Below are positions 33,467 through 60,389 of a stretch of 64,000 nt of DNA, one piece after another (position 1 is the first letter of the stretch; the number at the start of each line of letters is the position of its first letter). Below the pieces are notes generated by a model. It had not been told where the DNA came from. It did no database searches and was given only the letters and a program-made list of their open reading frames with translations. Source of the stretch: Thermococcus sp. MV5 (GTDB lineage: Archaea; Methanobacteriota_B; Thermococci; Thermococcales; Thermococcaceae). The position numbers were made by a program, and so were the translations under genes. The DNA lies in the NCBI RefSeq assembly GCF_012027425.1, contig NZ_SNUE01000005.1, forward strand, positions 62,001 through 126,000, written 5' to 3'.

Positions 33467-33508
33467 CTTTTATATTTTTGTTTTTATAGGGTGTAAGGGG
33501 GATTCAGA

Positions 33509-35246: not shown

Positions 35247-35260
35247 AAGGGGGAGATAGG

Positions 35261-36256: not shown

Positions 36257-36267
36257 GAGGTGGAAAC

Positions 36268-41375: not shown

Positions 41376-41376
41376 G

Positions 41377-44110: not shown

Positions 44111-44570
44111 GCAAGGGTAAAAAGTTGAAGGAAGTTACTGTTAAGTTTTTCGTTGAGGGGAAAACAGAATCTCCAACAAAATGACTGGGAAGGTCGGGGA
44201 TTTTGAAGTTATAGTAGATGAATCTCTAGAACTTGGAAGCACTAACAAAGGGCCAACCAGTGGAGTATCTCCTGATAGCATTAGTTGGATGTTTAAGCAT
44301 CACAGGCCACTTGATAGCAAAAGAGAAGGGTATAAATCTTAACTCCATTGGGATTAAGGTTATTTGGAATATTAGACTCAAGGAAATTCCAGGGGATTGG
44401 GGGGACGGGCGGGCTATAAGGAGATTAGAGTTGAGATACTCCCTGAAGGAAATGTCGAAGAGACCAAGCTTGCAGAATGGATAAGAGAAGTTGAAGAACG
44501 TTGCCCCATAACTAATAACCTCAAAAATCCAGCTCCAGTTAAAATTGAGATAAGAAAAGAGAACCTGTAG
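44107..44570 (+). pseudogene. OsmC/Ohr-like protein, frameshifted
   Basis: The ATG overlaps the DUF6506 stop (ATGA). Successive frames give KLKEVTVKFFVEGKTESPTK, then GKVGDFEVIVDESLELGSTN, then PVEYLLIALVGCLSITGHLI, and finally GYKEIRVEILPEGNVEETKL through ERCPITNN to a TAG at 44568. All parts of an OsmC-family peroxidase-like protein, including both redox cysteines, are present in order, but three frameshifts at A, C and G runs interrupt it. Real decay or homopolymer sequencing errors would look the same. Confidence 0.8.
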
Positions 44571-44617: not shown

Positions 44618-45040
44618 TTAAACATCGTATATCTCAGTTTCCATTCTTTTTGCTTTTTCTACATAAACTCTCTTGAAGCTTAGCTTGTTGTATGAAATAA
44701 TTGCTATTATTGCATAGGGATTGCATTTTCCACTAAGCAAGTGCCCTCCATACACCTTATTGTTTTTATCAGCAATACTTACGTGAACGTGGACTCTTGG
44801 AGCAGTCTCTTGTAGATATCCTGTTATTGAGACTATTTCATAAATTCCTTCAAATTTTTTCCGTTCGTATTCAGTACCAGTGTAGTATCCCATTTCTAGG
44901 TCTTTTAACATTCCAATACCTGAGATAATCATGCCGGCTTTGATGTTTTCACTTTTTGCCACTTTTGTTAATCCATCTAGAAGGTCTTCATTTCTTTCTA
45001 GTTTTACTATTACGTACTCATTATCTCTCTTAATATACAT
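44618..45040 (-). CDS. PPC/DUF296-domain protein
   Basis: A 140-residue single PPC (DUF296) domain: GMIISGIGMLKDLEMGYYTG near residue 35, PRVHVHVSIADKNNKVYGGH near residue 81. In plants the domain binds DNA with an AT hook; stand-alone prokaryotic members form trimers, some binding metals through the H-x-H and GGH residues, and have no established role. It follows the phosphotransferase subunit gene by 51 bases on the minus strand and may share its message. Confidence 0.85.
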   Translation of the reverse strand: MYIKRDNEYVIVKLERNEDLLDGLTKVAKSENIKAGMIISGIGMLKDLEMGYYTGTEYERKKFEGIYEIVSITGYLQETAPRVHVHVSIADKNNKVYGGHLLSGKCNPYAIIAIISYNKLSFKRVYVEKAKRMETEIYDV

Positions 45041-45091: not shown

Positions 45092-46921
45092 TCATTCTTC
45101 CTCCAAAACAGTCACTATACCATTTACTCCATCCAAGCGCACTTTCATACCATCTTTGAGCATCCTGGTAGCTATTCTTGTGCTCACTACACAGGGGATA
45201 CCAAATTCTCTTGAAACTATTGCTGGGTGAGAGGACAATCCTCCACTGTTTGTTATTACTCCCTTTATTTTTGGATATACTGAAATCCATGCTGGACTTG
45301 TTATGTCACAAACAAGAATGTCTCCATCTTCAACTTTGTCGAATTCATGTGGTCCCTCTACTACTTTAACGACTCCTTCTATTACCTTTGGTGCCCCTGC
45401 TGCGAGACCTTTTAATATTTTGGCCTTACCAGTCTTTGCAAGCTCATACGTTTCTTTTTCTTGTTGCAGTTTTTCAAGGCTCCATCCCCATAGTCCCTGC
45501 TTGTATGGCTCTTCTTTGATGGACCATTCTGTAATGGTACCTACATAAGGAGCTGGGATAAGTTCTTTAGCTTTTTCTCTTTCTTCTTTCCTTTGCTTGA
45601 CTAAAGCTTTGGCATCAATTTCTGAGGGATCTGCGAATAGTGTTCTTATCTCATCATACTTCAGGTAAAGTATGTCGTAGGGCTCTTCTAACAGGCCTTC
45701 TTTTACAAACTTCTTTCCCAACTCTCTAAGTACGTATTTTGCGGCTGCGTTTGTTTGTTGGTCAATGTAGAAGTGGTGGTTTGGTGTTAGTGGCGCCATT
45801 CTAATAGCCCTCTCCATTTTCTCTTTTACTAGTTCTTTCTTATCTTCGGGTATCATTTCCATTAGTTTTTCTATTGCTTCTTTTTGGTCTGTTATAATCC
45901 ATTCTTTATCTGCGTAGAAATCATAGTCCATCGCAAGGTATGTTCTTAGCTGGGCAATGACTGTGGGTGGGTATTCCTCCCAGGTAGGAAGATCGTACTC
46001 ATATACATACAATGACTTTCTTCCATATTCTTTTAGGAATTTGACGATTCTTTCATATATTTCTTTACCTTCTTCTAATTTTTGCAGCTCTTCCCAAACC
46101 TCTTCGTCAGTCTTTGGAGATTCAAATAATGTTCTTACTGCAGAATTACCCTTAACAACTTCTTTGATCTCATATAATACCTTTAGAGAGTCCCAATTGA
46201 CGTCATCTGTAGAAACTAATATTCTTGCAAGTAAGTCTTGCACCTCGGGAGTATTGTATTTCTCATCACCAAGTATCTGGCGAACGGTTTCTCTGAAGTC
46301 CAGGAAGGATGCGAATTGGGCAAAGTTCAGTATCCAGTGAAGCTTCCAATGTCTATCATAGATGTCTATCATCTCTTCTAAAAGCCACATTAGCTCCCCT
46401 AATGAAGCTTCCTCGTAGGGGTAGTTGAATATAAACTCTAGATTCTTCTTGATTTCGGGGACATATCTCTTCTCCCACTGATCTAAGAAGATGTCGGCAT
46501 ATATTGGCAATATTTTCATGAAATATTTTCCAGATATTCTTAGCTCATCCGGGTCTGTACGTGGAATTATCGTAGTATAAACATATCCATTAACCACTTT
46601 TGCTGGCCATGCTCTTCCAGTAGGAGACCAAAATCTCCTGTACATATATTCACAACTCTTTATGAGTTTTGCATCCCACCAAGTGAAAAGTTCCATTATT
46701 GGCAAAGCTGGATGTGGATTGTGTAAATCGCTTCTCCACCAGTGTAGATCTTTTTCGTGTTCCTTCAAAACAGTTATCCATTCGACATTTAGATCTTTGT
46801 CCCAGTTTTCACCCCACTTTACTGGAAAGTAGTCATCTCCTAGAAACTTTTCTATAACTTTGGACCCAAGTGCATACTCTTCTTTTTTCTCTTCTTCCTT
46901 TTTTCTAGAAAACAGTCCCAC
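45092..46921 (-). CDS. PEP-synthase-like phosphohistidine subunit (phenylphosphate synthase alpha-like)
   Basis: About 609 residues (70 kDa). The C-terminal ~110 residues form a PEP-utilising mobile domain, GDILVCDITSPAWISVYPKI followed by NSGGLSSHPAIVSREFGIP with the phosphoryl-accepting histidine near residue 565. The large N-terminal part is helical and tryptophan-rich, with no ATP-grasp domain, so ATP must be used by another subunit: the PPDK-N-type protein at 58590. The split and the sizes match phenylphosphate synthase of Thauera. Start: TTG 46936 would place GGAGGTG inside the gene, whereas GTG 46921 lies six bases after it. Natural substrate is unknown. Confidence 0.75.
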   Translation of the reverse strand: MGLFSRKKEEEKKEEYALGSKVIEKFLGDDYFPVKWGENWDKDLNVEWITVLKEHEKDLHWWRSDLHNPHPALPIMELFTWWDAKLIKSCEYMYRRFWSPTGRAWPAKVVNGYVYTTIIPRTDPDELRISGKYFMKILPIYADIFLDQWEKRYVPEIKKNLEFIFNYPYEEASLGELMWLLEEMIDIYDRHWKLHWILNFAQFASFLDFRETVRQILGDEKYNTPEVQDLLARILVSTDDVNWDSLKVLYEIKEVVKGNSAVRTLFESPKTDEEVWEELQKLEEGKEIYERIVKFLKEYGRKSLYVYEYDLPTWEEYPPTVIAQLRTYLAMDYDFYADKEWIITDQKEAIEKLMEMIPEDKKELVKEKMERAIRMAPLTPNHHFYIDQQTNAAAKYVLRELGKKFVKEGLLEEPYDILYLKYDEIRTLFADPSEIDAKALVKQRKEEREKAKELIPAPYVGTITEWSIKEEPYKQGLWGWSLEKLQQEKETYELAKTGKAKILKGLAAGAPKVIEGVVKVVEGPHEFDKVEDGDILVCDITSPAWISVYPKIKGVITNSGGLSSHPAIVSREFGIPCVVSTRIATRMLKDGMKVRLDGVNGIVTVLEEE

Positions 46922-46984
46922 AATATACACCTCCAAGAGAGATTCTCATTATGCAATATGATACTTTACACTTAAATAGTTTAT

Positions 46985-47033: not shown

Positions 47034-48467
47034 TCATTTTTTGTTATTTTTCACCTTAAAATAACCTTTATAATATGATACTAATGCTTGAAACTTGGGA
47101 TATGGGTCCTTTACATATAACTTATTGTTTTGGTATCTCCATCCTTTCCATCTATCTTTTATAGTTTCTATTAGAATCTGTGTAACAAAATGTACAAGCT
47201 CTGGATCATTGATGTGGGCATCCGAAGGTATGACAGTTACATTTGGGTTTGTTAAATCTATATTTTCCATTATTCCTTTCCACAGCATCATATCAGAATG
47301 GGGATTCCACCATGGTATAGTGGTTTGTACTAATTTGCCATTTTTGATTTTTTGACAGTAAACTCCCGAGGAGTTGGGAAGAAGAGGGTCTTGGTCATAG
47401 GCACTGAACCCACGGATTGGAATTATGATTATTACGGGGGCTTCAGCATCGTTAACTCTTTCTGCAATTAATTTTCCTGATTGATACATTTCTCTCTCAT
47501 TTGCTCGCATCAAAGTTACCATTCCTTTGCTATGTTCGTAAAAAAGGCGTTTTCTGTATTTATATGGAATGGTATTGGGAGGTCCGAAAACAATTTGATC
47601 TAGTCCCCCTGGAAGGATTATATGAGGTATCTTTCTTTCAATAGCCGCTCTTAGTCTTAGTTTCCCCTCATGACTTGCTATTAAGATTCCACCTGCAATC
47701 TCATCTACTATCTCGTGAGTTGTTAGATCATAAACTGCAACTACCCTTTCTTCACCTCTAACGAACTCTTCCATAATATATCCACCAGAAAGTCCCACGG
47801 CATGGAAAGAAATTACTTCAAACTCATTTTCTAGGATACTTTTACCCATCAATAAGTGTTGCGTAGTAGTTCCAAACTGTGTCGCTACAATAATTGGTTT
47901 TCTGGGGATTTTCACTGATTTTGCTTTTAGTTCTCCCATAATAGCAGCCGCAGCTTGATTAAGGACTGTTGCTTCTATAGTGTTTATTGTGTTCCCTCCG
48001 GAGATATCTGAGACAGACCACCAGATCTTAATGTCACTTCCAGCGGTCTTGGAGGAAACTTCTTGAGGCAGTGTTGTTATTAAATATTTAGGAATAAATA
48101 ATGGTAAACTTTTGAGTATCTTGATACCCATGCCTGTTCCTACCGAACCTCCAAATGCGATAACCCCATCTACTTTCTTTTCTCTTAAGAGATTATTCAG
48201 TATCTTTACAGCTCCTTTGATCATAATCTCTTGGGCTTCTATTCGATTTTTCCTAGAAACTTCCTCAATTGTACTTCCTCCTTCTTGGGCCACAGCATGG
48301 TTGGGGATATCAGGGGATACTATGGAGGAAGTGTATTTTTTGAGAGAAATGTCAATTAAAATAGGCATCCCGGCATAAAGTTTTATTCTCTCTTTCAGAT
48401 ATCTAGCTTCTATACCTTTTGTATCAAATGTACCAATGATGCATACCCTTGTCCCACCTATTTTCAT
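47034..48467 (-). CDS. Tm-1-like ATP-binding domain protein (UPF0261)
   Basis: About 477 residues; most family members are near 400, and the extra length is C-terminal (from about 420). The N-terminal nucleotide-binding part has CIIGTFDTKGIEARYLKERI at the start and AFGGSVGTGMGIKILKSLP near residue 104; the second part includes HEGKLRLRAAIERKIPHIIL and PGGLDQIVFGPPNTIP. Tm-1 from tomato binds viral helicase; the prokaryotic role is unknown and may be enzymatic. GAGGTGAC supports the ATG at 48467 over GTG 48479. It is divergent from the malate dehydrogenase gene. Confidence 0.85.
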   Translation of the reverse strand: MKIGGTRVCIIGTFDTKGIEARYLKERIKLYAGMPILIDISLKKYTSSIVSPDIPNHAVAQEGGSTIEEVSRKNRIEAQEIMIKGAVKILNNLLREKKVDGVIAFGGSVGTGMGIKILKSLPLFIPKYLITTLPQEVSSKTAGSDIKIWWSVSDISGGNTINTIEATVLNQAAAAIMGELKAKSVKIPRKPIIVATQFGTTTQHLLMGKSILENEFEVISFHAVGLSGGYIMEEFVRGEERVVAVYDLTTHEIVDEIAGGILIASHEGKLRLRAAIERKIPHIILPGGLDQIVFGPPNTIPYKYRKRLFYEHSKGMVTLMRANEREMYQSGKLIAERVNDAEAPVIIIIPIRGFSAYDQDPLLPNSSGVYCQKIKNGKLVQTTIPWWNPHSDMMLWKGIMENIDLTNPNVTVIPSDAHINDPELVHFVTQILIETIKDRWKGWRYQNNKLYVKDPYPKFQALVSYYKGYFKVKNNKK

Positions 48468-48577
48468 AACATTTGTCACCTCTGTGATAGAATTATATCA
48501 AAAATATGTTATTAAGAAATATTTAAATATCTTTCTTTCTATTTTAATTTTGTAAAAAATATCTTGAGGTGGTTAAG

Positions 48578-49465
48578 GTGAAAATTGGATTTGTGGGTAC
48601 AGGTAGGGTGGGCTCAACAATAGCGTTTACTTGTATTCAACAATTAGATGTAGATGAAATTGCCCTCGTTGATATTGTTGAAAACTTGGCAATTGGAGAA
48701 GCTATGGATTTAAGTCATGCGGCGGCTGGTCTTGATAGATATCCAAAAATTGTAGGAGGGGGTGACTATAAACTTCTTAGAGGGAGTGACATAATAGTAG
48801 TAACCGCAGGATTGGGAAGGACACCCGACATGACAAGACTAGATTTAGCCACAAAGAATGCGGGTATTATTAAAAGTGTAGCAAAGAAAATAGTGCAGAA
48901 TTCTCCTGAAAGTAAAATATTAGTAATAACGAATCCTGTTGATTTAATGACATATGTCATGTGGAAGGAGACTAGAAAACCACGAAATGAAGTCTTTGGG
49001 ATGGGAAATACACTGGATTCAATGCGTCTTAAAAGGATCCTCTATGAATTTACTACTAAAAAGATAAAAAAAGCTTGGATACTGGGAGAACATGGAAATA
49101 GCATGTTTATATCCAAAGGTTTGATAGATGTTGAGAGCGTGCCTGATTTGGATAAAATACTCTCTAACGTCCGATTTGCAGCAGCAGAGGTTATAAGAAA
49201 AAAAGGAGCCACATTTTACGGTCCAGCAATCGCAGCATATAGGATGATAAACGCTGTTCTAAATGATACAAAGGAAGAGATACCTGCTAGTGTAGTCCTA
49301 GATGGGGAATTTGGGCTTAAGGATATTGCAATAGGTGTTCCTATTATTCTCGGGAAAAATGGCGTGGAAAAAATTGTGGAGTATGAGCTTACTCAAGAGG
49401 ACTTAAAAAACCTAAGAAATTCTGCAAGTCTGTTAAAAGAAAAATTAAAGGAGCTAGGATATTAA
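48578..49465 (+). CDS. mdh: NAD-dependent malate dehydrogenase (LDH-like)
   Basis: A 295-residue Rossmann-fold 2-hydroxyacid dehydrogenase. GFVGTGRVGSTIAF is the dinucleotide loop; Asp in ALVDIVEN favours NAD over NADP. In TAGLGRTPDMTRLDLATKN the specificity residue is arginine, the malate/oxaloacetate type, and the catalytic His is in GEHGNSMF. GAGGTGGT followed by GTG at 48578 fits better than the GTG at 48569. It is the only plus-strand gene between 44.6 and 62 kb, convergent with the AOR operon, and could supply or consume oxaloacetate for it. Confidence 0.87.
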   Translation: MKIGFVGTGRVGSTIAFTCIQQLDVDEIALVDIVENLAIGEAMDLSHAAAGLDRYPKIVGGGDYKLLRGSDIIVVTAGLGRTPDMTRLDLATKNAGIIKSVAKKIVQNSPESKILVITNPVDLMTYVMWKETRKPRNEVFGMGNTLDSMRLKRILYEFTTKKIKKAWILGEHGNSMFISKGLIDVESVPDLDKILSNVRFAAAEVIRKKGATFYGPAIAAYRMINAVLNDTKEEIPASVVLDGEFGLKDIAIGVPIILGKNGVEKIVEYELTQEDLKNLRNSASLLKEKLKELGY

Positions 49466-49481: not shown

Positions 49482-49880
49482 TCAAATCTTATCACTAAGG
49501 AACTCCTTAGCCTTATTTTCGGCTTCTTCAAAATATCCCGAGGCCTTGAGTGCTGGTACGTAAACACAGATCAGTTTTAGTGTCTCGTCGCTAGTATTTT
49601 TCATCTCGTGTTTTACTCCTGCTGGGGCATATACGAGCATATCAGGATGGACTTCTACTTCACCTTCCTCTGAAATTGCTACTCCATGCCCTGAGGCAAT
49701 ATACATGTATTCATCTACATCGTGGGTGTGAGCCCCAGTAGTGCTGTGCGGGTATATCAGGGATACTAATAGGGTAAGGTCTTTGTTGCCGACATTGGGG
49801 GAAAACAGCACTTTTAGCACTCTTTCATTTGGTTTCGGAACAGTTACTCCCGGAACTTCCCAAATTTTTATAGCCGCCAT
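49482..49880 (-). CDS. Cupin-domain protein
   Basis: About 132 residues forming one cupin barrel. Motif 1 is seen as HSTTGAHTHDVDEYMYIASG near residue 50 (two His and a Glu as metal ligands) and motif 2 as PAGVKHEMKNTSDE near residue 94. Small cupins can be isomerases, decarboxylases or ligand sensors. GGAGGT supports the ATG at 49880. It is the last gene of the seven-gene operon, 14 bases after the kinase-like gene. Confidence 0.88.
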   Translation of the reverse strand: MAAIKIWEVPGVTVPKPNERVLKVLFSPNVGNKDLTLLVSLIYPHSTTGAHTHDVDEYMYIASGHGVAISEEGEVEVHPDMLVYAPAGVKHEMKNTSDETLKLICVYVPALKASGYFEEAENKAKEFLSDKI

Positions 49881-49894
49881 ACTACATACCTCCA

Positions 49895-50785
49895 TCAAAT
49901 AATTTTTTCAATTTCATCCATAATAATTTGTGGGTTTTTAGCCCGAATTAAATATACATCTAGCTCATCTGCGACTTTCTTAACGAATCTCAGCCTTCTT
50001 TCCCGTAGTTCTTGATAGTCGATAAGTGGGAATGGTCGTTTACTAGAAAGCATATAATGGGCCATGAAATATGTTTCTGTAAGGCATATGAAAGTCTGAT
50101 ACATTTTCTCATAAGTGTCGAGTTTTTTGACAAATGTGTCAAAATTGCCATCGATATCTGGGATTATTATAAGATCTAACTTTCTAAACTCTTCTACCCA
50201 TCTCCATTCTGGCAGTTTATCAAAGAACTTCCATACTCCCGCAGTTGCAGGAGGTAAGTCTGATCTTTCTGTGCCCTTCACTCTCTTTGTTATAAAGACA
50301 TCTTTGCTGCCTTCCACTACTTTTAAGTCCTCGTTAACTAATACACTCTCTGTGCCTATAATTGCGCCTCCTCTTCTGACAGCTTCAATTAAACTCATCG
50401 TCTTTCCGTGGTTTTCTTCACCAGCCATAAAGAGTATATTTTTCCCTTTGTAATTCACGGCTGTAGAGTGAAAATTGTATATGCCATTCTCTTGGAGTTT
50501 TCTAACTATCATTGCAAGCATTAATTTTTGTATATCTCCCGGTGGCAGTTGTCCATATAACATCAAAACCTTTCCATCTGGGTTATAACTGATGTCTATT
50601 TTTTCTACATCTGCATACCAGATTATATCTGGTCGGCCTTCTTTTATATCTTGAACCTCCTTTAGGCCTCCAAGTCTGTATTGAATAAAGCTTAGATCCC
50701 CAATAAGATCTTCTTGAGTTCTTGAAATTATGTCTACTCTCAACCTAACACCTGCGGTTTCAAATTCGCGAGTCTTAACTTCCAT
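49895..50785 (-). CDS. HPr-kinase-like P-loop protein
   Basis: A 296-residue protein. The Walker A-like loop GEENHGKTMSLIEAV lies near residue 122, after YNFHSTAVNYKGKNILFMA, the strand arrangement of the HPr kinase/phosphorylase C-terminal fold (PEP carboxykinase-like). HPrK phosphorylates HPr on serine; an archaeon without a PTS would use another substrate. The second half contains IIIPDIDGNFDT and a tyrosine-rich region. It starts directly after the HMGL-like stop and is co-transcribed. Function inferred only by fold. Confidence 0.65.
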   Translation of the reverse strand: MEVKTREFETAGVRLRVDIISRTQEDLIGDLSFIQYRLGGLKEVQDIKEGRPDIIWYADVEKIDISYNPDGKVLMLYGQLPPGDIQKLMLAMIVRKLQENGIYNFHSTAVNYKGKNILFMAGEENHGKTMSLIEAVRRGGAIIGTESVLVNEDLKVVEGSKDVFITKRVKGTERSDLPPATAGVWKFFDKLPEWRWVEEFRKLDLIIIPDIDGNFDTFVKKLDTYEKMYQTFICLTETYFMAHYMLSSKRPFPLIDYQELRERRLRFVKKVADELDVYLIRAKNPQIIMDEIEKII

Positions 50786-52042
50786 TTACTTTCCCTCCTT
50801 TTCTAAAACTTCTCTTGCAATTCTTATCAATAAAGAGTCGGATACAGTACTTTTTAGAGTGTTAGCTGTCTCTTTAACTTTATATGCTATTTTTCTCATA
50901 ACTTCAGGATCTTCTACTGTAATCCCCAATTCTGCCAACCTTTCTGCAACAAATGAAGTTCCACTTCCTTTTGAAACTACATATTCCAATTTTCTTCCAA
51001 CTGCTTCAGGCATGAATGGGAGCATTCCCGTAAGCTTACCTGCTTCTCTTGCTTTTCTGTGCATCCAAGTGATCCATCCAGCTGTGTATTTGAATTGGTT
51101 CTCTCCAACTATGGGTTTGTTTACTGCGACTTTTACTTTTGATATCTCTTCAACGATTTTCGAGACTTCATATAGTTTTTCTAGCTTTATATTTGTCTTT
51201 ACACCAAGTAAAAATTCTAATGCAACTGCAATTTCCTCTAGCGATAACAAACCAACTCTCTCTCCAAGGCCGTTAACTGTTACATGAAGTCCTTCAATTC
51301 CAGAAGCTACGGCGACTAAAGCACCAGCAGTTGCTAACCCAAAGTCATTGTGTATGTGTAGTTCTAAGGGAGTCTTACCAGCAGCCTCTTTAAGCCGTTT
51401 CATCACGTATTCCATGGCCCAGGGAAGGGCGTCTCCATACGTGTCACATATGGTAATCCTGTCTACATGAGCCTCTACTAATGCTTTTACGTTCTTTTCT
51501 ACAAACTCTAGGGGGGCCTTGAAGTCGTCCCAAGGCATTGCCACTACATAAAGGCCATGTTCCTTTGCGTATAATGCAGCGTTAAGGCCTCTTTCAATAA
51601 TTTCTTCTGGCTTTAAATTCCAGAATACCTTCCCTTGCCAAGGATTTCCAACAAAATCCAAGACAATCCCTTCTAAGTCAAGTTTTAAAGCTAAATCTGT
51701 GTCTTCTTTTTTCCAGCTTACAAAGGAGAGAAGCTTTGCATTGAGGCCCATATTTACTAACTCTTTTGCGGCCTCTTCATCATCCTTTGAAAGGAAGGGG
51801 ATTAGTTCTATTCTGTCTATGCCAAGCTCATCTAGAGCCTTTGCAATCATCACTATCTCATCTCTCTTAAAGGCCACTCCTGGCATTTGTTGGCCTTCTC
51901 TAATTGTGGCATCATGTAGTACTACTCTTTCAGGGGGAGTTATTTTGGAGCGTACTTCCTCAATCCAATTGTAAGGGGTCAACCAATACTTTTCGGTATC
52001 CCATTTTTCTTTATTTGGCAAATCCAATCTTACCACCTCCAT
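50786..52042 (-). CDS. HMGL-like/isopropylmalate synthase family enzyme
   Basis: A 418-residue protein of the DRE-TIM metallolyase family. The motif HDATIREGQQMPG (residues 43-55) replaces the usual DTTLRDGEQ; the metal His pair is in LELHIHNDFGLATAGAL near residue 205, and VNGLGERVGLLSLEEIAVAL follows. Members perform Claisen condensation or aldol cleavage (2-isopropylmalate, homocitrate, HMG-CoA). The C-terminal regulatory domain of LeuA is lacking. Within this operon it is more likely to be catabolic than for leucine, as no leuB-D genes are near. Confidence 0.82.
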   Translation of the reverse strand: MEVVRLDLPNKEKWDTEKYWLTPYNWIEEVRSKITPPERVVLHDATIREGQQMPGVAFKRDEIVMIAKALDELGIDRIELIPFLSKDDEEAAKELVNMGLNAKLLSFVSWKKEDTDLALKLDLEGIVLDFVGNPWQGKVFWNLKPEEIIERGLNAALYAKEHGLYVVAMPWDDFKAPLEFVEKNVKALVEAHVDRITICDTYGDALPWAMEYVMKRLKEAAGKTPLELHIHNDFGLATAGALVAVASGIEGLHVTVNGLGERVGLLSLEEIAVALEFLLGVKTNIKLEKLYEVSKIVEEISKVKVAVNKPIVGENQFKYTAGWITWMHRKAREAGKLTGMLPFMPEAVGRKLEYVVSKGSGTSFVAERLAELGITVEDPEVMRKIAYKVKETANTLKSTVSDSLLIRIAREVLEKEGK

Positions 52043-52050
52043 AATATAAC

Positions 52051-52821
52051 CTAAACATCATCCTTTCCAAGCAATTTTGTCCATGGATGACGTGGATGAG
52101 GACCGGCCGTGAGTAGAGGATATATCTGAGGAGGATACTTTGCATCAATTTCTTTTATCCTGGTTAGTGCACTTTCTAACTCCTTGACACTCATTCCAAA
52201 CCAAATTTCATCATCCTGGACATGTGCCATAGCTCTCGCTCCTCCGCAGGGAATATTGATCCAGGGATGATTCCCTAAGACAAGAGCTGCTACAATCTCA
52301 CATGCGGCATGGCCATTGAATGCAGAAATCGGTTTTTTGAACTCCGAGTCATAATAGCCTCCCAGAAGTAGATAGGCTTGAGTAGGATTAATTGTTAATA
52401 TAACGCCATCTGGACTAATATTTAGACGATAGAAATCCTTTAATGGGCCAAAAATAGCTTCTTGATATTCTCCCTGTGGGAGATGGACAATATCGTTTAT
52501 CATTTTTTCGTAACCTTCTTCAGTATATTTCTTACCTAAAAGCCATTTTGCTTTTAATTTTTCAGGAAGTCCCTCAAATCCAAGAATATAAGGTCCAAAA
52601 ACACACGCGGCTAAGCTTCTGCTGTCAACTCTATACGTCTTCTCGTGTATTGCTACTAACTTTAAAACCTGGCATAGGGTTAGTTTCCGTCTTAGTTTTT
52701 TGATGGCTTTGTATTTTGAGATTTCATGGGTTTTTACCATCTTAAATGCTATAGGGGCACCTTTAGGTTTGATTCGCTGTTCAAGTTCCTCTGAAATCTC
52801 TTTTGTGTTCGTATCTTTCAC
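52051..52821 (-). CDS. DUF169 family protein
   Basis: A 256-residue protein with the family arrangement: PIAFKMVKT near residue 22, LTLCQVLKLV with a cysteine near residue 50, RSLAACVFGPYILGF near residue 68, FNGHAACEIVAALVLGNHPW near residue 168 and CGGARAMAHVQDDEIWFGM near residue 190. The conserved cysteines suggest metal or cluster binding; function is unknown, and DUF169 genes are common near anaerobic redox enzymes. Start is uncertain: the in-frame GTG at 52821 lies inside the AGGAGGTG ribosome binding site. Confidence 0.8.
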   Translation of the reverse strand: MKDTNTKEISEELEQRIKPKGAPIAFKMVKTHEISKYKAIKKLRRKLTLCQVLKLVAIHEKTYRVDSRSLAACVFGPYILGFEGLPEKLKAKWLLGKKYTEEGYEKMINDIVHLPQGEYQEAIFGPLKDFYRLNISPDGVILTINPTQAYLLLGGYYDSEFKKPISAFNGHAACEIVAALVLGNHPWINIPCGGARAMAHVQDDEIWFGMSVKELESALTRIKEIDAKYPPQIYPLLTAGPHPRHPWTKLLGKDDV

Positions 52822-52836
52822 CTCCTAATAAAAAGC

Positions 52837-54642
52837 TCAGTCGATCTCTTTTACAATCCCATCTTCAGTTAGTCCTCTTAACTCGTAGTATCTTGGTAGC
52901 CATTTTTCTATGGGTGGAACTTGTGTATCCGTCCTGTTTGCATGAGGTGTTGCCATTCTAAGGGGTAACTTATCGTCTTTAGCAGTTATGCCTAGTTCGT
53001 TGTTTATCTTTCTCTGTACTTTCCATATTCTATTTGCAATTTCCATTAATTTCTCAGGAGTGTATTCTTTTCCTGTAACAAAGTAAAGAAGCTTTATTAT
53101 GTCTGTTACAGTCAAACCAGCGGCAAAGGCATATTTGCAGATAATCAACGAGTCGTAGATTATCATTAAGTTCTGCATTTTTATTACAGTTTCAATCAAT
53201 TCATCGCCATCGATGTATCTATTGTCAAAGGCTTTTATGCCAAGTTCAGGCACGGAAATGCCTTTAAATGGCATATGGGGCCATCCTAAATGGTCTGCAC
53301 CACGATTCATAGTTACGTGGCTTAGTCCATGGGACCAGTAGGCTCTACCATCATGGGCGGGCATTTCTAGACCCTTTATTTCTACCGCAAGTTCAGGAGC
53401 TCCTAGTTTCTCTGCAGCTTTTTTAACACCTTCTGCCAAGATATCTCCTATTCCCTCTCTGTGGGCAATTTTTTCAATCAGTTTGTGCACTGTTTCTGCG
53501 TTTCCCCATTCTAGGGTTAGGCCTTCGAGATTCTTGTCTACTATTCCTCTTTCTGCTGCATCAAAAAGGAATCCAATGACGTTTCCGGTTGAAATCGTGT
53601 CTAATCCTAGTCTATCACACATGTTATTGGCTTTGATAATTGCCTCTAAGTCATCTACTAACAAGTTTGAACCTAAAAGGCCCACAGTTTCATATTCTGG
53701 CCCTAATCCAACAAATTCTTTGAAATATTTTCCATTCTTTACTTCCACAAGCCTTTTACATGCAATTGGACAGAATGTACATGCGAACGGACTCTTAAGG
53801 TAGTTTTCTGTTAAACTCTCTCCACTGATCTTAGCAACTTTTTCATCATCCCACTTGCCCCAAAGAAAGTTTCTAATAGGGAGATTCCCGAGCACATGAT
53901 ATCCTTTTACTCCTCCAGCGCTTCCATATCTTCTTAGTCCAGTTCCACCTTTTGTTAGCTTCTTTATCAATTCTTTTAGGAATTCTTTTAGTTCCTCTGG
54001 ATAAGCAACGGGAATTGTTTGTGTGCCTTTTGCTACTATGGCCTTGAGGTTCTTTGACCCCATCACTGCTCCGAGACCGCACCTTCCTCCAAATCCCTCT
54101 TCGTTTGCTATAATAGAAATTTTAACCTTCTTCTCTCCAGCAGGCCCTATAGCTAGGGCCTTTATTGTTGAGTCGTTTAAGTCCTTTCTGAGGGACTCTA
54201 TTGTTTCGTGTATATCCCTACCCCAATATTTGCTTGCATCTCTAATCTCTGCGTTTCCATCATGGAGGAATAAGTAAACAGGTTTTTCAGCTTTTCCTTT
54301 TACAATTATTGCGTCAAATCCTGCTTTTTTCATTTCGATCGCAAACCTTGTTCCAATATGGGTCTCACCCCATATTCCAGTTTCTGGAGAAATAGAGCCG
54401 ACAGTTACTCTTCCTCCATTAGGAATTCCATCGATGGTTAAAGGACCAGTAGCAAAAACCATTATGTTGGACTCATCCTCGGGATCTTTAATCTTTTTAA
54501 GATTCTCATGTATGATATGGGCAGCGTATCCAGTTCCACCCATATATTTCTCATAGATTTTGGGATCGGCCTCTAGAACCTCGAGTTTGTTTTCACTCAA
54601 ATCAACATTTAGTATTTTTCCAGTATATCCAAACCATTCCAT
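52837..54642 (-). CDS. Aldehyde ferredoxin oxidoreductase family tungsten enzyme, copy 1
   Basis: About 601 residues, the usual AOR length. FGYTGKILNVDLSENKLEVL opens the N-terminal domain, GGRCGLGAVMGSKNLKAIVA near residue 187 is a pterin-contact element, and the cluster ligands are CTFCPIAC (about residues 288-295) plus the cysteine in LIICKYAF near residue 502. AOR enzymes oxidise aldehydes to acids with ferredoxin as acceptor. The ATG at 54642 follows GAGGTG; an upstream GTG at 54651 is less well placed. A dedicated ferredoxin gene precedes it in the operon. Confidence 0.92.
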   Translation of the reverse strand: MEWFGYTGKILNVDLSENKLEVLEADPKIYEKYMGGTGYAAHIIHENLKKIKDPEDESNIMVFATGPLTIDGIPNGGRVTVGSISPETGIWGETHIGTRFAIEMKKAGFDAIIVKGKAEKPVYLFLHDGNAEIRDASKYWGRDIHETIESLRKDLNDSTIKALAIGPAGEKKVKISIIANEEGFGGRCGLGAVMGSKNLKAIVAKGTQTIPVAYPEELKEFLKELIKKLTKGGTGLRRYGSAGGVKGYHVLGNLPIRNFLWGKWDDEKVAKISGESLTENYLKSPFACTFCPIACKRLVEVKNGKYFKEFVGLGPEYETVGLLGSNLLVDDLEAIIKANNMCDRLGLDTISTGNVIGFLFDAAERGIVDKNLEGLTLEWGNAETVHKLIEKIAHREGIGDILAEGVKKAAEKLGAPELAVEIKGLEMPAHDGRAYWSHGLSHVTMNRGADHLGWPHMPFKGISVPELGIKAFDNRYIDGDELIETVIKMQNLMIIYDSLIICKYAFAAGLTVTDIIKLLYFVTGKEYTPEKLMEIANRIWKVQRKINNELGITAKDDKLPLRMATPHANRTDTQVPPIEKWLPRYYELRGLTEDGIVKEID

Positions 54643-54681
54643 CTTCTTCACCTCTTCTAAACAGAAAAATGAAAGCTAAAA

Positions 54682-55164
54682 TCAAGGATCCTCAATGATT
54701 TGTTTTGTCAACGTGATTATTGTTTTGTTTTGTTCATGGGCCACTTTGCTGGCCAGTGGGTGAACGAATTGAATGGCCTCTGTCGGGCAGTATTTTGCAC
54801 ACTGAGGATCCCCATCACACAAATCACATATTGTTATCTGGTTAAGTACTGGATCTAGGATAATACCATTGTATGGACAAGCTTTGATACACAGTCTACA
54901 ACGAGTACATTTGTCATGATCCACAACGATAGCTCCGGTTTCGGGGTATACTGATAATGCATCAAATGGGCAGGCTTGAATACAGAATTTCTCTTCACAT
55001 TGGACACACACGTTTACAACGTCCAAGTTTTCTTGTTCCTTTCTAAGGACTCTAATCCTACTTCGGTCAGGGTTTATCACACCTAAATGATAAGCTGAAC
55101 ACACTATGGAGCAAACATTACATCCTGAGCATTTTTCAGGATAGAAAACCAACATTCCCTTCAT
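54682..55164 (-). CDS. Four-cluster ferredoxin partner of AOR
   Basis: A 160-residue iron-sulfur protein with 16 ligand cysteines in four groups: CSGCNVCSIVC (residue 12), CVQCEEKFCIQACP (residue 53), CTRCRLCIKACP (residue 86) and CDLCDGDPQCAKYCP (residue 113), enough for four [4Fe-4S] clusters. The arrangement matches the electron-transfer subunits (HycB/AorA-like) that join AOR to other redox partners. Its start overlaps the end of AOR copy 2 by four bases and it is followed by AOR copy 1. Confidence 0.92.
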   Translation of the reverse strand: MKGMLVFYPEKCSGCNVCSIVCSAYHLGVINPDRSRIRVLRKEQENLDVVNVCVQCEEKFCIQACPFDALSVYPETGAIVVDHDKCTRCRLCIKACPYNGIILDPVLNQITICDLCDGDPQCAKYCPTEAIQFVHPLASKVAHEQNKTIITLTKQIIEDP

Positions 55165-57080
55165 TCTTCTCCCCCCTTAATAAGGCCTCTTTTTCTGAGA
55201 TCTTCTTCGATTTCATGGACTTCTAGTTCTTTGAGAATCTGTGGTTTAGGTGCTGTAGTCTTCGGATCGAGCCCTCTAAGTGCATAATATGCATCGAGTA
55301 GCTTCTCAAACTTCTCACGTGGGAATATTTTGGTGTCCCCCTTCTCATTTATTGGAAGAGGTTCTTCGAAGACCCTTCTTGGGAGATAATCATGTTCTCT
55401 GCGCAGTCCGTATCTTACATTCTCTGCTCTTTCGGTTAGTATTGTCCTATGAGCAGCTTTTGCAAAGTCCTCAGGGGTCAAATTAAGGCCAGTTGCGGCG
55501 TTATATATCTTAAACATTCCTTTTTCTTTTACTTCCGCAATTTCAGGCGTGGAAGTGTATGAAGAATAGGCCCAATTACAGACTTCGAAGAGGTTTACTA
55601 ATGTTACATAAGTCTCAAAGTGAACAAATACTCTCATTGCCTCGTCTTCTGGGAGTTCATCCCATTTCAAAGATCTTCCACTGCTTAACACAGAAACTCT
55701 CAGGTGATCAGCACCTCTGGTGGCGATGGCATATCTCATGTTGTAGACATTTCCAGCCCGGGGGTCATTAGAGGGCATTGTTAATCCTTTAACTTCTAGT
55801 GCATACCATTCACTCTCAGGTCCAAACTCTTTGATTAACTCTTTTGTACTTTTTGCAAAGAGTTCGCCAATCTTACCTTTTCTGTAAGCTACACTTTTTA
55901 TGATTTCTTCTATTGCTTCAAAGTTTCCCCAAGTAAGTTCTAGACCTCCAACTTGTTCTTTTGTTATTATTCCATTTTCATACAAATCTATTGCAAAAGC
56001 GATGTTGGAGGGTAATGTTGTTGCATCAATTCCATATGCATCACAAAGCTTGTTCAGGTAGATCCCGGCCTCTGTATCCCATCCCCCGGCCCTATATGTG
56101 AGGGATTGGATTGAATAGTATTCTGGGCCTCTCCCTTTTATCAGTCCATACTTTTCACTCTCCATGTATATTGATCTGGTACATGCTATTGGACAAAGGA
56201 AACAGGATCTCCCTTTGACGTGATATTTTAGTATTGTTTCGGCACTTACCTTCTCAAGTTCTTCCTCAGTTGCGTATCCACGGTGGCCATTTTCAATAAT
56301 TAGAGTTCCATGTGCCGAGTGGACTCTATGAAGGAAATTAGATCCTAATAATCTTCCCACCTGAGATGTCATGGGATCATCTAGAAATACCTGCAACAGT
56401 TCTTCAAATGCTTCTTTCCAAGCTTCATAATCTGCTAATTTAATGTCTTTTGTACCACGCACAGAGATAGCTTTTAGATTCTTGGAGCCCATTACAGCAC
56501 CCATTCCAGCTCTTGCAGCTGCGCGGCTTTCGGTTTCTATTATGGCCGCAGTTGCAACTAAATTTTCTCCTGCGGGCCCTATTGCCACGGCCTTTATATT
56601 TCGATCCTCTTCTTTTTCTCTAAGATGGTCAAAGGTTTCGTGGGTAGTCAAACCCCACATGTCTTTGGCACTTTTAATCTCAACATTGTCGTCTTGGATG
56701 GAGAGATAAACGGGTTCTTGAGCTTTACCAGTAATTACTATGAAGTCATAACCGGCATGTTTTAGTTCCATGGCAAAATCTCCACCAGAATTAGAATCTC
56801 CATGAATTCCAGTGGCTGGAGATCTGGCTCCAACGGTGAATCTACCCGAAGCAGGGGCTATTCCCGATAGAGGCCCAGTAGCAAATACTAAGGGGTTTTG
56901 GGGATCTAAAGGATCTCTCTCAGGATCTACAAGGTCAAAAAGAAGTTTTGCAACAAATCCACGCCCACCAATGTACTTTACAGCAAGTTCAGGATCAAGA
57001 TCTTTTGTTAGAATTTTGTTCTTAGATAAGTCGACCCAAAGGGTCTTTCCTGCATATCCACCTTCAATATGTATACTCAT
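55161..57080 (-). CDS. Aldehyde ferredoxin oxidoreductase family tungsten enzyme, copy 2
   Basis: About 639 residues, some 40 longer than copy 1. Key elements: YAGKTLWVDLSKNKI at the start, GGRGFVAKLLFDL (residues 38-50), AGMGAVMGSKNLKAISV near residue 191, the cluster ligands CFLCPIAC at residues 293-300 and a late cysteine in EVCNWAYSS. Copy 2 has a longer C-terminus (residues about 600-639). GGAGGAAGG leads to the ATG at 57080. It is the first gene of the operon, preceded by a 31-base dyad. Substrate is unknown. Confidence 0.92.
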   Translation of the reverse strand: MSIHIEGGYAGKTLWVDLSKNKILTKDLDPELAVKYIGGRGFVAKLLFDLVDPERDPLDPQNPLVFATGPLSGIAPASGRFTVGARSPATGIHGDSNSGGDFAMELKHAGYDFIVITGKAQEPVYLSIQDDNVEIKSAKDMWGLTTHETFDHLREKEEDRNIKAVAIGPAGENLVATAAIIETESRAAARAGMGAVMGSKNLKAISVRGTKDIKLADYEAWKEAFEELLQVFLDDPMTSQVGRLLGSNFLHRVHSAHGTLIIENGHRGYATEEELEKVSAETILKYHVKGRSCFLCPIACTRSIYMESEKYGLIKGRGPEYYSIQSLTYRAGGWDTEAGIYLNKLCDAYGIDATTLPSNIAFAIDLYENGIITKEQVGGLELTWGNFEAIEEIIKSVAYRKGKIGELFAKSTKELIKEFGPESEWYALEVKGLTMPSNDPRAGNVYNMRYAIATRGADHLRVSVLSSGRSLKWDELPEDEAMRVFVHFETYVTLVNLFEVCNWAYSSYTSTPEIAEVKEKGMFKIYNAATGLNLTPEDFAKAAHRTILTERAENVRYGLRREHDYLPRRVFEEPLPINEKGDTKIFPREKFEKLLDAYYALRGLDPKTTAPKPQILKELEVHEIEEDLRKRGLIKGGEE

Positions 57081-57099
57081 ATAACCTTCCTCCATTAAA

Positions 57100-57130
57100 A
57101 ATTTCAATATATGGTATACAAATTGAAATT
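57100..57130 (-). promoter_or_regulatory. Large dyad upstream of the AOR operon
   Basis: AATTTCAAT (57100-57108) and ATTGAAATT (57122-57130) are a perfect nine-base inverted repeat around a core holding the palindrome GTATAC (57114-57119). Further GGTATA words lie at about 57142-57147 and 57218-57223. The dyad begins 20 bases ahead of the start codon, so it would cover the transcription start. Confidence 0.6.
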
Positions 57131-57261
57131 CTTAAGCTTTTTGGTATAGATATTATGAAAGAAATTATAACATTATGTAAAAAGAAATTGGAATTTTCAT
57201 ACTATATAATCCCCCTATGGTATAACACAAATGAAGTTAAAAGAAAAAAACTAATACTCTT

Positions 57262-58071
57262 TTACTCTTTTTCAACAATTGCAACGGCTCTGACCCATCC
57301 AGCACTTGCTTTCTCAATCTTTATTGGGAAAAGAACTACTACGAAACCTGTTGGTTTTGGTATTTTGTCTAGGTTTGCAAGTCTTTCCAGATGTATATAT
57401 TCCCTTTCCCTTCCAACATTGTGGGCTGGCCAGAGAACACTTTTATCTCCAGTTCTCTTGTATTCTTCTCCCATTACTTTAAATGCTCTATCAAATCCAA
57501 ATGCATCAATCCCCATAACTTTCACGCCTTGGTCAATTATGTAAAGGGTTGCTTCTCGGCTCATTCCTGGGTGGGCTTCAAAATACTCTCTTGTTCCCCA
57601 TTTCTTATCCCATCCAGTATGAATTAAGACGATGTCCCATGGTTGAAGTTTGTAATTAATTTTTTTCAAAGCTTCTTTCACGTCTTCTTCGGTTATAAGT
57701 TCTCCAGGCCCTTTATGTGTCATGTCTAGGACTACTCCATTTCCAATACACCATTCAAGAGGTACCTCATCGATAGTTTTTGCTTTCATTTTACCATTTT
57801 CAGTTGTGGGAAAGAAATGCCAAGGAGCATCCATGTGAGTACCGATGTGAGTAGCCAAAGTTAATTCTTCCCAAGCTTGTGAGTGATACTCATAAAATGG
57901 TGGTCCGGGAGGGAAGTCTATAGGATTTATTCCTGTGGGAACTGAATTTAGCCTAGCACCTTGTTCATGGTTCCATTGGGTCATCTTTACATACCCTACA
58001 ATGTCAGGCATAAAGGGCTGTATTGGCAGTGTCAAATCAATTAACTGATATTTTTCTCTGTCCCAAAACAA
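57262..58071 (-). CDS. Cyclase/kynurenine-formamidase-fold metal hydrolase
   Basis: A 269-residue protein of the cyclase family. The metal-binding signature HIGTHMDAPWHFF near residue 95 is clear, and DIVLIHTGWDKKWGT near residue 165 and VKVMGIDAFGFDRAF near residue 208 agree. Relatives hydrolyse cyclic or formyl amides (kynurenine formamidase, isatin hydrolase). The start is a TTG six bases after GGAGGTGG. Monocistronic, with GGTATA at about 58104-58109 near its predicted transcription start. Confidence 0.87.
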   Translation of the reverse strand: MFWDREKYQLIDLTLPIQPFMPDIVGYVKMTQWNHEQGARLNSVPTGINPIDFPPGPPFYEYHSQAWEELTLATHIGTHMDAPWHFFPTTENGKMKAKTIDEVPLEWCIGNGVVLDMTHKGPGELITEEDVKEALKKINYKLQPWDIVLIHTGWDKKWGTREYFEAHPGMSREATLYIIDQGVKVMGIDAFGFDRAFKVMGEEYKRTGDKSVLWPAHNVGREREYIHLERLANLDKIPKPTGFVVVLFPIKIEKASAGWVRAVAIVEKE

Positions 58072-58302: not shown

Positions 58303-58593
58303 TTAGAGAGCTCCGCCATGTACTACTGGTAGGAAGAAGACTTCCTCTCCATCTTCTAATTGGACTCTGGGTAAGTCTTTAGGTATCAATACCCGGCCTC
58401 TTACAATGATAGTTGAAAATTCAAAGATTTTATTAGGATTATCCTCAAAAAACTCTGCCAGTTGAGGGTATCTTTGAAAGAGCATCTCAACTAACTCTTG
58501 AACAGTAAGAGGAGATTTATCTATTTCGAGTGTTTCCTTATGTTTTTTTATTTTTTCGTAAAATGGTCCTCCATATGTTAAAGTTAGTTTCAC
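58303..58593 (-). CDS. MoaD/ThiS-like protein with a GGAL tail
   Basis: A 96-residue beta-grasp protein (MKLTLTYGGPFYEKIKKHKE, later VQLEDGEEVFFLPVVHGG). The C-terminus is GGAL and not GG, so two residues would need removal before the diglycine could be adenylated, unless the protein does not act as a sulfur carrier. GTG start overlapping the stop of the PPDK-N-like gene (GTGA), so both are translationally coupled. A role in tungstopterin supply for the two AORs is plausible. Confidence 0.82.
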   Translation of the reverse strand: MKLTLTYGGPFYEKIKKHKETLEIDKSPLTVQELVEMLFQRYPQLAEFFEDNPNKIFEFSTIIVRGRVLIPKDLPRVQLEDGEEVFFLPVVHGGAL

Positions 58594-59657
58594 TCCTTAC
58601 ACCTCAATTTATGTTTCAGCACTCTCGGTTTTTGGATTTTTCCCTTTTTGACATTCCAAACTGTTTCCGCTCGGGCCTGTACAATTTTAACTTTTCCTGG
58701 GAAATCTTCGTATCTGTCTATTGCCCATTCAATATCCATAAAGATGCCATAATGCTCCTCAATCTTTTTAGCATATTCCACAAGTAGTGCTATCTCTTTC
58801 TCATTGATTGAAGGCATTTTTCTGAATTGTGGAAATACAGGAAGCTCTTTCACGGTTTGAGTGTAAGGGTCCCAGTCGATTCTTATAGTCTTTTCTGCAA
58901 TCTGCTTCTTTATAATCCGTTTAGTGTTTTTATCCACTACAAAGTGGTCTGGGATTACTCTTCCACTCACAACCGCTTCTCCTAATCCCCAGCTTCCTTC
59001 AATCACTATCTCATTTTCATCTCCAGTAATGGGATTTACTGTGAACATAACTCCAGCGGCTTTAGAACGCACCATAGCCTGGATAACCACTGCCATGTAC
59101 ACATTTTCGTGGGGGATGTTCATCTGATTTCTGTATACAATAGCTCTCGGAGTGTAAAGACTTGCCCAGCACTTTTTCACGTGTTTAATCACACTCTCTG
59201 GGGTTGAGACATACAAATATGTATCTTGCATGCCAGCAAAACTGGCACTTGGTAAATCTTCAGCAGTTGCTGAACTTCTTACAGCCACTTTAGTGTTTTT
59301 TTCTTTTTTTATTTTGCAAAGTTTTTCATAAGCCTCAACTAACTCTTTTTCAAAGTTTTTATCTAATTTTGCTGAGATTATCATGTTCTGTATTTTTTCA
59401 GCGGTTTCTTTTATTTCAGAAGGCTTAGTTATACTTTTAGTTTCTCTTAACAGACGTTGGATCTCCTCCCAGATTCCAGTTTGTGTCATAAAGTTCTTGA
59501 ACGCCGTTGAAGTTACCACAAACCCTTCTGGAACTCTTATTCCTATGGAGACCAGTTCCCCAAGATTTGCACCTTTTCCGCCAACTATACTTAAGTCATC
59601 TTTACTTATATCTTCAAACCACAGGATATTTTTCTTATATTTTTCAGGAATTGACAT
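58590..59657 (-). CDS. PEP-synthase-like ATP-binding subunit (phenylphosphate synthase beta-like)
   Basis: A 355-residue (40 kDa) stand-alone PPDK N-terminal ATP-grasp domain: GGKGANLGELVSIGIRVPEG near residue 23, VAVRSSATAEDLPSASFAGM near residue 124, NPITGDENEIVIEGSWGLGE near residue 206 and QARAETVWN at the end. It lacks the phosphohistidine and PEP/pyruvate barrel domains. It must therefore pass phosphate to a histidine on another protein, most probably the 609-residue product at 45092. The size matches the second subunit of phenylphosphate synthase. Operon with MoaD-like gene. Confidence 0.8.
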   Translation of the reverse strand: MSIPEKYKKNILWFEDISKDDLSIVGGKGANLGELVSIGIRVPEGFVVTSTAFKNFMTQTGIWEEIQRLLRETKSITKPSEIKETAEKIQNMIISAKLDKNFEKELVEAYEKLCKIKKEKNTKVAVRSSATAEDLPSASFAGMQDTYLYVSTPESVIKHVKKCWASLYTPRAIVYRNQMNIPHENVYMAVVIQAMVRSKAAGVMFTVNPITGDENEIVIEGSWGLGEAVVSGRVIPDHFVVDKNTKRIIKKQIAEKTIRIDWDPYTQTVKELPVFPQFRKMPSINEKEIALLVEYAKKIEEHYGIFMDIEWAIDRYEDFPGKVKIVQARAETVWNVKKGKIQKPRVLKHKLRCKE

Positions 59658-59861: not shown

Positions 59862-60389
59862 TCACTCTTCTACAGTCTGTGGAAATGTTATTGTGACGTT
59901 AAACCATCCTAAGAACGCACCGAAGTATCCTGCTACTAGTGTCCAAAAGGCCGCAACAAAAGTGGCAGCGTACGAGCCTACCTCCACTGGGGGCAAAGCT
60001 CCAGTGAAATACACAGCAAGCGTCATTGAAATTCCGTTAAATATTGCTAGAACGGCTTTTCCTATACTGGGATACTTTAGGGTATATACCACAATACCAA
60101 CCCAAATGAAGTTCGTGATGATAAATGCAATATCAAAGCCTAGTGATGGTGCCAATGCAAGGGATGAGGCTAGCCAAAAGGCCGTCATAATGCAGCCATA
60201 AAGGAAACCATACCCAATCATTTTCAATGCTTCTACATTTGCTCCAAACACAAAATACTCAGCCCAAACAATAAAGCTAATCCACACGGGGAGTCCCCAA
60301 GCCCCCAATCTTGTTGCAAATGGAGTTGCTACCGCTACAGTTATAGGAGTGGCTATCCAGAGGGGTATCCTTTGCTTTACAACAGCCAT
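59862..60389 (-). CDS. DUF1097-type membrane protein
   Basis: A 175-residue integral membrane protein with about five to six segments, including WGLPVWISFIVWAEYFVFGA and GFLYGCIMTAFWLASSLALA in the first half. It resembles the DUF1097 (YcdZ-like) family, of unknown function but sometimes grouped with transport. It may carry the substrate or product of the surrounding pathway. GGTGATTTC precedes the ATG. Confidence 0.72.
   Translation of the reverse strand: MAVVKQRIPLWIATPITVAVATPFATRLGAWGLPVWISFIVWAEYFVFGANVEALKMIGYGFLYGCIMTAFWLASSLALAPSLGFDIAFIITNFIWVGIVVYTLKYPSIGKAVLAIFNGISMTLAVYFTGALPPVEVGSYAATFVAAFWTLVAGYFGAFLGWFNVTITFPQTVEE

Follow-up and report, generated by a model that had tools for sequence, protein, structure and literature searches.

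A Co-Inherited Gene Block with Two Tungsten-Type AORs and a Two-Component Dikinase in Thermococcus: A Candidate Anaerobic Catabolic Route

The Seven-Gene Operon

The window analysed here is a stretch of 64,000 nucleotides from Thermococcus sp. MV5, part of contig C5 of a host genome of 1.98 Mb (G000), and the system in question is a seven-gene operon in which two tungsten-type oxidoreductases of the AOR family are joined to a ferredoxin, an HMGL-like lyase, and a kinase-like protein. The genomes compared with it below are those of other Thermococcales (G075, G076, G078, G079, and G084) and of Bacillota (G459, G468, and G533). All seven open reading frames were confirmed on the minus strand, at 57080-49482. 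From the upstream end, they encode AOR_A, an AOR-family large subunit, or WorL (55161..57080, 639 aa, AFOR_N/AFOR_C); a WorS-type ferredoxin subunit (54682..55164, 160 aa, Fer4); AOR_B, a second AOR-family large subunit (52837..54651, 604 aa, AFOR_N/AFOR_C); a DUF169 protein (52051..52821, 256 aa, PF02596); an HMGL-like DRE-TIM enzyme with an N-terminal extension (50786..52042, 418 aa, PF00682); a P-loop HPrK/PEPCK-like protein, recognised from its homologues and a fold match (49895..50785, 296 aa); and a cupin (49482..49898, 138 aa, PF07883, Cupin_2). Six of the seven proteins have a Pfam match, the exception being the HPrK-like protein.

The tight operon described in the first-pass annotation holds up: the distances between successive genes, from AOR_A to the cupin, are -4, 30, 15, 8, 0, and -4 bases, all on one strand and with no gap above 30, and four other genomes preserve this order and spacing, at identities of 82-98% (the G084 copy is divided over two contigs; G076 and G079 each consist of a single contig). 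Because of this conservation, together with purifying selection and a rearranged recurrence in Bacillota (see below), the seven-gene arrangement is, on the comparison of genomes, more than chance.

The best start for AOR_A is the ATG at 57080, which is preceded by GGAGG. The 181 bases upstream (57081..57261, minus strand) have a mean column identity of 94% in four genomes, although dS exceeds 1 for nearly all genes of the surrounding block between G000 and G079, that is, although synonymous sites are near saturation; this region is therefore probably a genuine promoter region. It contains three copies of the 7-base motif TATACCA, which occurs five times in the promoters of the block (three at AOR_A, one at the cyclase gene, and one at the gene of the phosphoenolpyruvate (PEP)-utilising protein, both described below), where dinucleotide shuffles predict 0.3. 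G079 retains two of the AOR_A sites and that of the PEP-utilising gene. The motif was picked post hoc, after inspection of the promoters, and is therefore no more than a hint of co-regulation.

The Block Around the Operon

As a description of the whole unit, the operon proved too narrow, since the unit also holds a two-component dikinase, a cyclase, and a MoaD/WorX protein. The seven genes form the central part of a block of 15 genes and ~16 kb, from DUF296 to DUF1097, at about 44.6-60.4 kb. On the downstream side of the operon lie a malate/lactate dehydrogenase (48569..49465, plus strand, 298 aa), which scores above the cut-off of an NCBIfam malate dehydrogenase subfamily, and then, on the minus strand, a UPF0261/Tm-1-like protein (47034..48479, 481 aa, PF06792/PF23189) with a homologue in a Thermomicrobium roseum cluster; the PEP-utilising protein, which is the swivel/substrate component of the dikinase (45092..46936, 614 aa, PF00391 only); and, at the left end, a PCC/DUF296-domain protein (44618..45040, PF03479) that occurs only together with the block. 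On the upstream side, also on the minus strand, are a cyclase-family metal hydrolase (57262..58071, 269 aa, PF04199), a MoaD/ThiS-like, WorX-like protein (58303..58593, PF02597), the ATP-grasp component of the dikinase (58590..59657, 355 aa, PPDK_N, PF01326, 385 bits), and, at the right end, a DUF1097 membrane protein (59862..60389, PF06496).

Of 94 Thermococcales genomes, 5 have the HPrK-like gene, and these belong to a single genus; two weak partial matches in another genus were not recovered by a profile search, and nothing was found elsewhere among 115 genomes of the phylum. Where the contigs allow, the five carriers share the order DUF1097, PPDK_N, MoaD, cyclase, AOR_A, ferredoxin, AOR_B, DUF169, HMGL, HPrK-like, cupin, malate/lactate dehydrogenase, UPF0261, PEP-utilising, and DUF296, with an acetamidase gene preceding DUF1097. 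In the congeners G078 and G075, the site is empty: E1beta, DUF6506, an intact OsmC-like gene, and acetamidase are consecutive (the small genes were read in G078), and DUF1097 is missing. In G000, the 15 genes sit between the acetamidase gene and a frameshifted OsmC-like remnant at the left border (44117..44565, plus strand), which in G078 is intact (156 aa) beside acetamidase. Acetamidase itself was rejected as a member, being present at the empty site and hence older flanking sequence.

The flanks give the tree ((G000,G076),(G079,(G078,G075))), and from this topology the block would either have been gained before the split and lost once or else have been transferred. Its G+C content is 38.5%, against 39.4-41.8% around it; a recent import was considered on the basis of base composition, which gives no clear signal. 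The ratio of nonsynonymous to synonymous substitution (dN/dS) is 0.006-0.17 over all the genes of the block, as expected of purifying selection. Comparative sequence data thus support the view of the block as a conserved, co-inherited gene set.

Two further genes were noted at the borders. Beyond acetamidase, a methyltransferase gene (window 62118-62633) has the same five-genome distribution within the genus as the block. In G079, a further AOR-family gene (L011:6318-8165, minus strand; 36% identity to both AOR_A and AOR_B) adjoins the block and the methyltransferase gene; the window has no copy there.

Recurrence in Bacteria

The gene set was looked for in other genomes, and its genes are not unlinked in all relatives, the outcome that the first-pass annotation had named as telling against a joint function: its families recur, rearranged, in Bacillota, where the sample was 399 genomes and the matches were few. 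A profile of the HMGL-like protein and its Asgard relatives led to an HMGL subfamily in Bacillota. Locus L103 of G533 has nine block families on one strand, in an order different from that of the window, with identities of 58% for the cyclase, 43% for HMGL, 45% for the cupin, 44% for PPDK_N, 35% for the ferredoxin, and 43% for the PEP-utilising protein; one of its AORs is 37% identical to AOR_B and another 40% to AOR_A, and it also holds MoaD and the alpha and beta parts of a fumarase-type hydratase. The profile of the PEP-utilising protein matched in only three of the sampled Bacillota genomes, and all three copies lie within such clusters. The cluster in G468 comprises malic enzyme, a fumarase pair, the PEP-utilising protein, PPDK_N, an AOR_A homologue (41%), ferredoxin, a full-length HPrK-like protein (44%), an SDR, and the cyclase (43%), after which come E1alpha, E1beta, E2, and E3 genes. 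In G459, the PEP-utilising, PPDK_N, and HPrK-like (42%) genes adjoin a molybdenum enzyme of the xanthine dehydrogenase (XDH) type and E1, E2, and E3 genes.

A plasmid of T. roseum carries UPF0261, the cyclase, PPDK_N, the PEP-utilising protein, and XDH. This cluster resembles the block in its dikinase parts (42% and 37%), cyclase (42%), and UPF0261 (34%) but differs in having a molybdenum XDH-type oxidoreductase, no AORs, and no HMGL, DUF169, or HPrK-like gene. A molybdenum hydroxylase of the aldehyde-oxidase/xanthine-dehydrogenase family is thus present in the clusters that lack AORs, which would fit a common redox step.

Some anaerobic bacteria have part of the block in common with the archaeon, and because G533 and G468 in the Bacillota carry a number of the same families, the gene combination is, by its gene content, conserved across domains and not due to chance. 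The idea of a chance adjacency or insertion product with no joint function could draw on the patchy distribution (5 of 94 genomes), and we give it hardly any credence in view of the near-identical order in five species and this recurrence, which already contradicts it. Another possibility, which we consider unlikely, is a loose catabolic hot-spot, where independent, aldehyde-detoxifying AORs happen to lie in one island with hydrolases and kinases unrelated to them and where no single pathway exists. The AOR of P. furiosus (PfAOR) is indeed thought to detoxify the aldehydes of peptide fermentation (PMC13328260), gene content does vary between clusters, and the block adjoins other catabolic genes (E1/E2 and TRAP). 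Such an island does not readily explain why the same families stand together in Bacillota in a different order, nor the tight spacing, the all-or-none presence within the genus, and the purifying selection.

HMGL alone was tried as a marker and rejected, since most of its Bacillota relatives adjoin transporter, hydroxyacid dehydrogenase, or creatininase genes with no dikinase. A scan of contigs with the AOR alignment led mainly to unrelated AORs of Planctomycetota and Njordarchaeota, which have no block neighbours, and the Asgard HMGL relatives (L055 and L056) lie beside FAA-type hydratase, amidohydrolase, OsmC-like, and phenylacetate-CoA-ligase-like genes, with no AORs. In two other Bacillota loci (L094:3000-10600 and L100:600-12000), AOR and ferredoxin genes are near an extension-type HMGL gene accompanied by hydroxyacid dehydrogenase genes and by cupin or M24 peptidase genes, with no dikinase; these are possible further catabolic variants. 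A compact set of GntR-type regulator, TRAP transporter, HMGL, and cyclase was seen in L101, L126, and L127 (only part of it in L126, a short contig) and may be a minimal two-enzyme catabolic cassette.

The Enzymes

The 614-aa component of the dikinase carries the catalytic-His motif GGLSSHPAIVSREFGIP and shares 25% identity with Azoarcus PpsA and 41-44% with the proteins of G533, G468, G459, and T. roseum; the 355-aa component is 45% identical to Azoarcus PpsB. By Pfam, neither component has a PEP/pyruvate-binding TIM barrel, which rules out a PEP synthase. HpeHI, CreHI, and PpsAB are two-component small-molecule dikinases that phosphorylate phenolics, HpeH being of 71 kDa and HpeI of 41 kDa (PMC12167813). 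The archaeal pair (PpsA/HpeH-like and PpsB/HpeI-like, respectively) matches this layout in its domains, with a split into parts of about 71 and 40 kDa, an ATP-grasp and a swivel His, and no PEP/pyruvate barrel. It differs from PpsAB in that its swivel component falls in a separate group (41-61% identity among Thermococcales, G533, G468, G459, and T. roseum), neither carboxylase nor phosphatase genes were noticed within the block, and an HPrK-like protein is present instead of the CBS protein PpsC. By analogy with these systems, the dikinase may phosphorylate a phenolic or enolic hydroxyl.

The cyclase-family hydrolase has the motif HxGTHxDxPxH. Another member of PF04199, DPGC, catalyses the retro-Claisen ring cleavage of dihydrophloroglucinol (PMC10470551). 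The likeness to the anaerobic phloroglucinol pathway is at the level of this family, and the block showed no genes for phloroglucinol reductase, TfD, or TAL.

The HMGL-like protein resembles isopropylmalate and homocitrate synthases in its D-R-E/D start motif, its HxHND metal site, and an identity of 30-40%; it differs from them in a WWxSPYN-type N-terminal extension and in lacking the GIH histidine, which is GWI in the window. This histidine is missing from all sampled extension-bearing relatives and present in isopropylmalate synthase-like controls, and the thermococcal copy carries Leu at the position of the metal-ligand Asn; both residues are named here by their roles in isopropylmalate synthase and HMG-CoA lyase. 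The protein also falls well short of the NCBIfam cut-offs for the synthases (308 versus 517 bits and 302 versus 485 bits). The missing histidine would fit a C-C cleaving role.

AOR_A has the CxxCxxxC motif, the GPEY Glu, and the GADH His, and both AOR_A and AOR_B share their 4Fe-4S, Glu, and His motifs with an AOR paralogue of the same genome; we take the Glu and His to have the catalytic roles that they have in PfAOR. In a maximum-likelihood tree, AOR_A forms a clade with the AORs of G533 and G468 (support 100/100). The best match of AOR_B in the Protein Data Bank (PDB) is 1AOR. The ferredoxin has 16 Cys in four 4Fe-4S motifs within its 160 aa, and its best PDB matches are AorA of A. aromaticum (8c0z_C) and the Fe-S subunit of WOR5 (6x6u_B). 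AOR_A and the ferredoxin have the published layout of the Class II tungsten oxidoreductases (WorLS, e.g., WOR5/ASOR of P. furiosus), where WorL adjoins a four-cluster ferredoxin subunit, and the MoaD-like protein corresponds to the ThiS-like WorX of these enzymes (PMC13328260); the class assignment is one of gene layout and domains and does not place AOR_A among the 92 published clades. AorAB of A. aromaticum, a comparison system for the AOR_A/ferredoxin pair, is Class III. The block departs from Class II WorLS in having two WorL genes flanking a single WorS and in linking the AORs to a dikinase, a cyclase, and a DRE-TIM lyase, an association not found in the literature searched; neither PMC13101534 nor PMC10570749, which deal with benzene and phenol clusters, mentions AORs with a dikinase. 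Both AORs may be tungsten enzymes that oxidise aldehydes with ferredoxin.

A different proposal would be that the AOR-type enzymes are reductive or ring-acting, as is the benzoyl-CoA reductase BamB, on an aromatic activated by the dikinase. BamB is an AOR-family enzyme (PDB match 4z3w), and the block also holds an activating enzyme of the phenol type. Both AORs are much nearer to PfAOR than to BamB (330 versus 200 and 399 versus 183 bits), they keep the Glu and His motifs, no Bam-type partner subunits were seen, and XDH-type molybdenum hydroxylase genes occur where AORs are missing, which makes this proposal improbable.

The HPrK-like protein has no Pfam family in the window copy, and its full-length homologues are those of G468 and G459 (42-44%); no plasmid homologue was found. 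The proteins share a Walker A of the pattern GxxxxGK(S/T) (GEENHGKT, GESNSGKT, and GEGNRGKS). A structural model that included the bacterial homologues reached a moderate pLDDT of 70 (five near-identical sequences gave 40, which was unusable), and in Foldseek it matched first PEPCK (ATP-PEPCK, E 5e-6) and then HPr kinase (E 5.5e-4), with low TM-scores; a PEPCK/HPr-kinase fold is predicted with moderate confidence. No PDB relative of the DUF169 protein was found.

A Possible Pathway

The first-pass annotation saw in this gene set a candidate undescribed catabolic system, and for the set, conserved and co-inherited, we indeed found no match among described pathways. Its suggestion that the surrounding hydrolases and phosphotransferase belong to the system stands for the cyclase and the dikinase, because these recur with the set in Bacillota; acetamidase lies outside it. 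That the operon is the core of the 15-gene block and that this block encodes an anaerobic catabolic route through a dikinase, a cyclase, a lyase, and tungsten enzymes is in our view the likeliest reading, only a little short of an even bet. The order of steps and the substrate are what we infer from linkage, conservation, presence and absence, recurrence in Bacillota, and family identity, all directly observed.

The route could begin with the dikinase, which would pass the beta-phosphate of ATP, by way of its swivel His, to a phenol or enol hydroxyl group on a small substrate. The cyclase-family hydrolase might then open a ring or cut a C-C bond in a 1,3-dicarbonyl by a retro-Claisen reaction, and the HMGL-like enzyme might carry out a metal-dependent aldol or acyl cleavage of a hydroxy-oxo-acid, yielding an oxo-acid together with either an aldehyde or a shortened acyl unit. 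The pair of AOR_A and WorS, and likewise AOR_B, would convert aldehydes into carboxylic acids and pass the electrons to ferredoxin, MoaD/WorX serving in cofactor assembly for the tungsten enzymes; the handing of a lyase-made aldehyde to the AORs, as first proposed for the operon, is kept here as a working hypothesis. Malate/lactate dehydrogenase, perhaps with the neighbouring E1/E2 complex, would bring C3/C4 acid products into central metabolism; the fumarase genes of G533 and G468 and the malic enzyme of G468 point in the same direction. The HPrK/PEPCK-like protein may be a kinase or regulator linked to the dikinase. The substrate most likely belongs to the cyclic or phenolic compounds that are available under anoxic conditions. 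The fuller proposal, of a hitherto unknown anaerobic pathway common to hyperthermophilic Thermococcales and part of the Bacillota, by which the dikinase would activate a cyclic phenol or enol, the cyclase and a non-synthase DRE-TIM lyase would cleave it, and a dedicated AOR pair would oxidise its aldehydes with ferredoxin, is more tentative, and we think it possible but somewhat doubtful.

Several observations weigh against this route. HMGL is missing from the clusters of G468, G459, and T. roseum, and DUF169 was not found in any of the bacterial clusters; therefore, not every part is obligatory. The tree gives AOR_B no firm place and does not show it to be an orthologue of the second AOR of G533. 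A dikinase relative, rifampin phosphotransferase, acts on a non-phenolic hydroxyl. No UbiD-type phenylphosphate carboxylase was noticed by eye in the open reading frame lists of the window (no family search of the genome was made), and the block showed neither benzoyl-CoA enzymes nor a CoA ligase.

The E1/E2 genes raise the question of a diketone or acetoin-type route, in which an acetoin-dehydrogenase-like E1/E2 releases the aldehyde for the AORs while the dikinase and the HPrK-like protein act on the derived pyruvate or PEP. We regard this as quite unlikely: E1/E2(/E3) genes do adjoin the dikinase clusters of the window, G468, and G459, and AcoX-like and Lin0512 genes are present, but E1 genes occur in 21 of the 94 Thermococcales genomes (all five carriers included), 16 of which are without the HPrK-like marker; the 20-kb segment analysed at the G533 cluster contains none; and the dikinase has no pyruvate-binding barrel. 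Since it is more widespread in Thermococcales than the block, the E1/E2 complex may be an older partner and not a member.

Flanking Genes

At window 32294-37242, a TRAP transporter (DctPQM) and a second E1alpha/E1beta pair are present in G000 and absent at that place in G076 and G079. The E2 protein (41375-40557) is seemingly without a lipoyl domain, and short stand-alone lipoyl-domain open reading frames lie by the E1 genes (window about 31670-32290 and 41376-41620, minus strand); for these reasons, the complex may use separate lipoyl carriers. A C/D-box sRNA, sR46 (Rfam RF01130; window 2287-2341, minus strand), lies between a TIM gene and a permease-like gene.

Significance

A DRE-TIM subfamily is delimited here whose members automatic annotation is likely to label isopropylmalate or homocitrate synthase. 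A physiological role has been defined for a member of only 5 of the 92 clades of tungsten oxidoreductases (PMC13328260), and the two-component dikinases found described belong to a few bacterial phenol-type pathways (PMC12167813). The block offers a shared, testable context for both kinds of enzyme within an archaeal genus. Thermococcales are usually regarded as fermenters of peptides and sugars; if the substrate is aromatic, ring catabolism would be added to their repertoire, which would be relevant to oil reservoirs and hydrothermal sediments.

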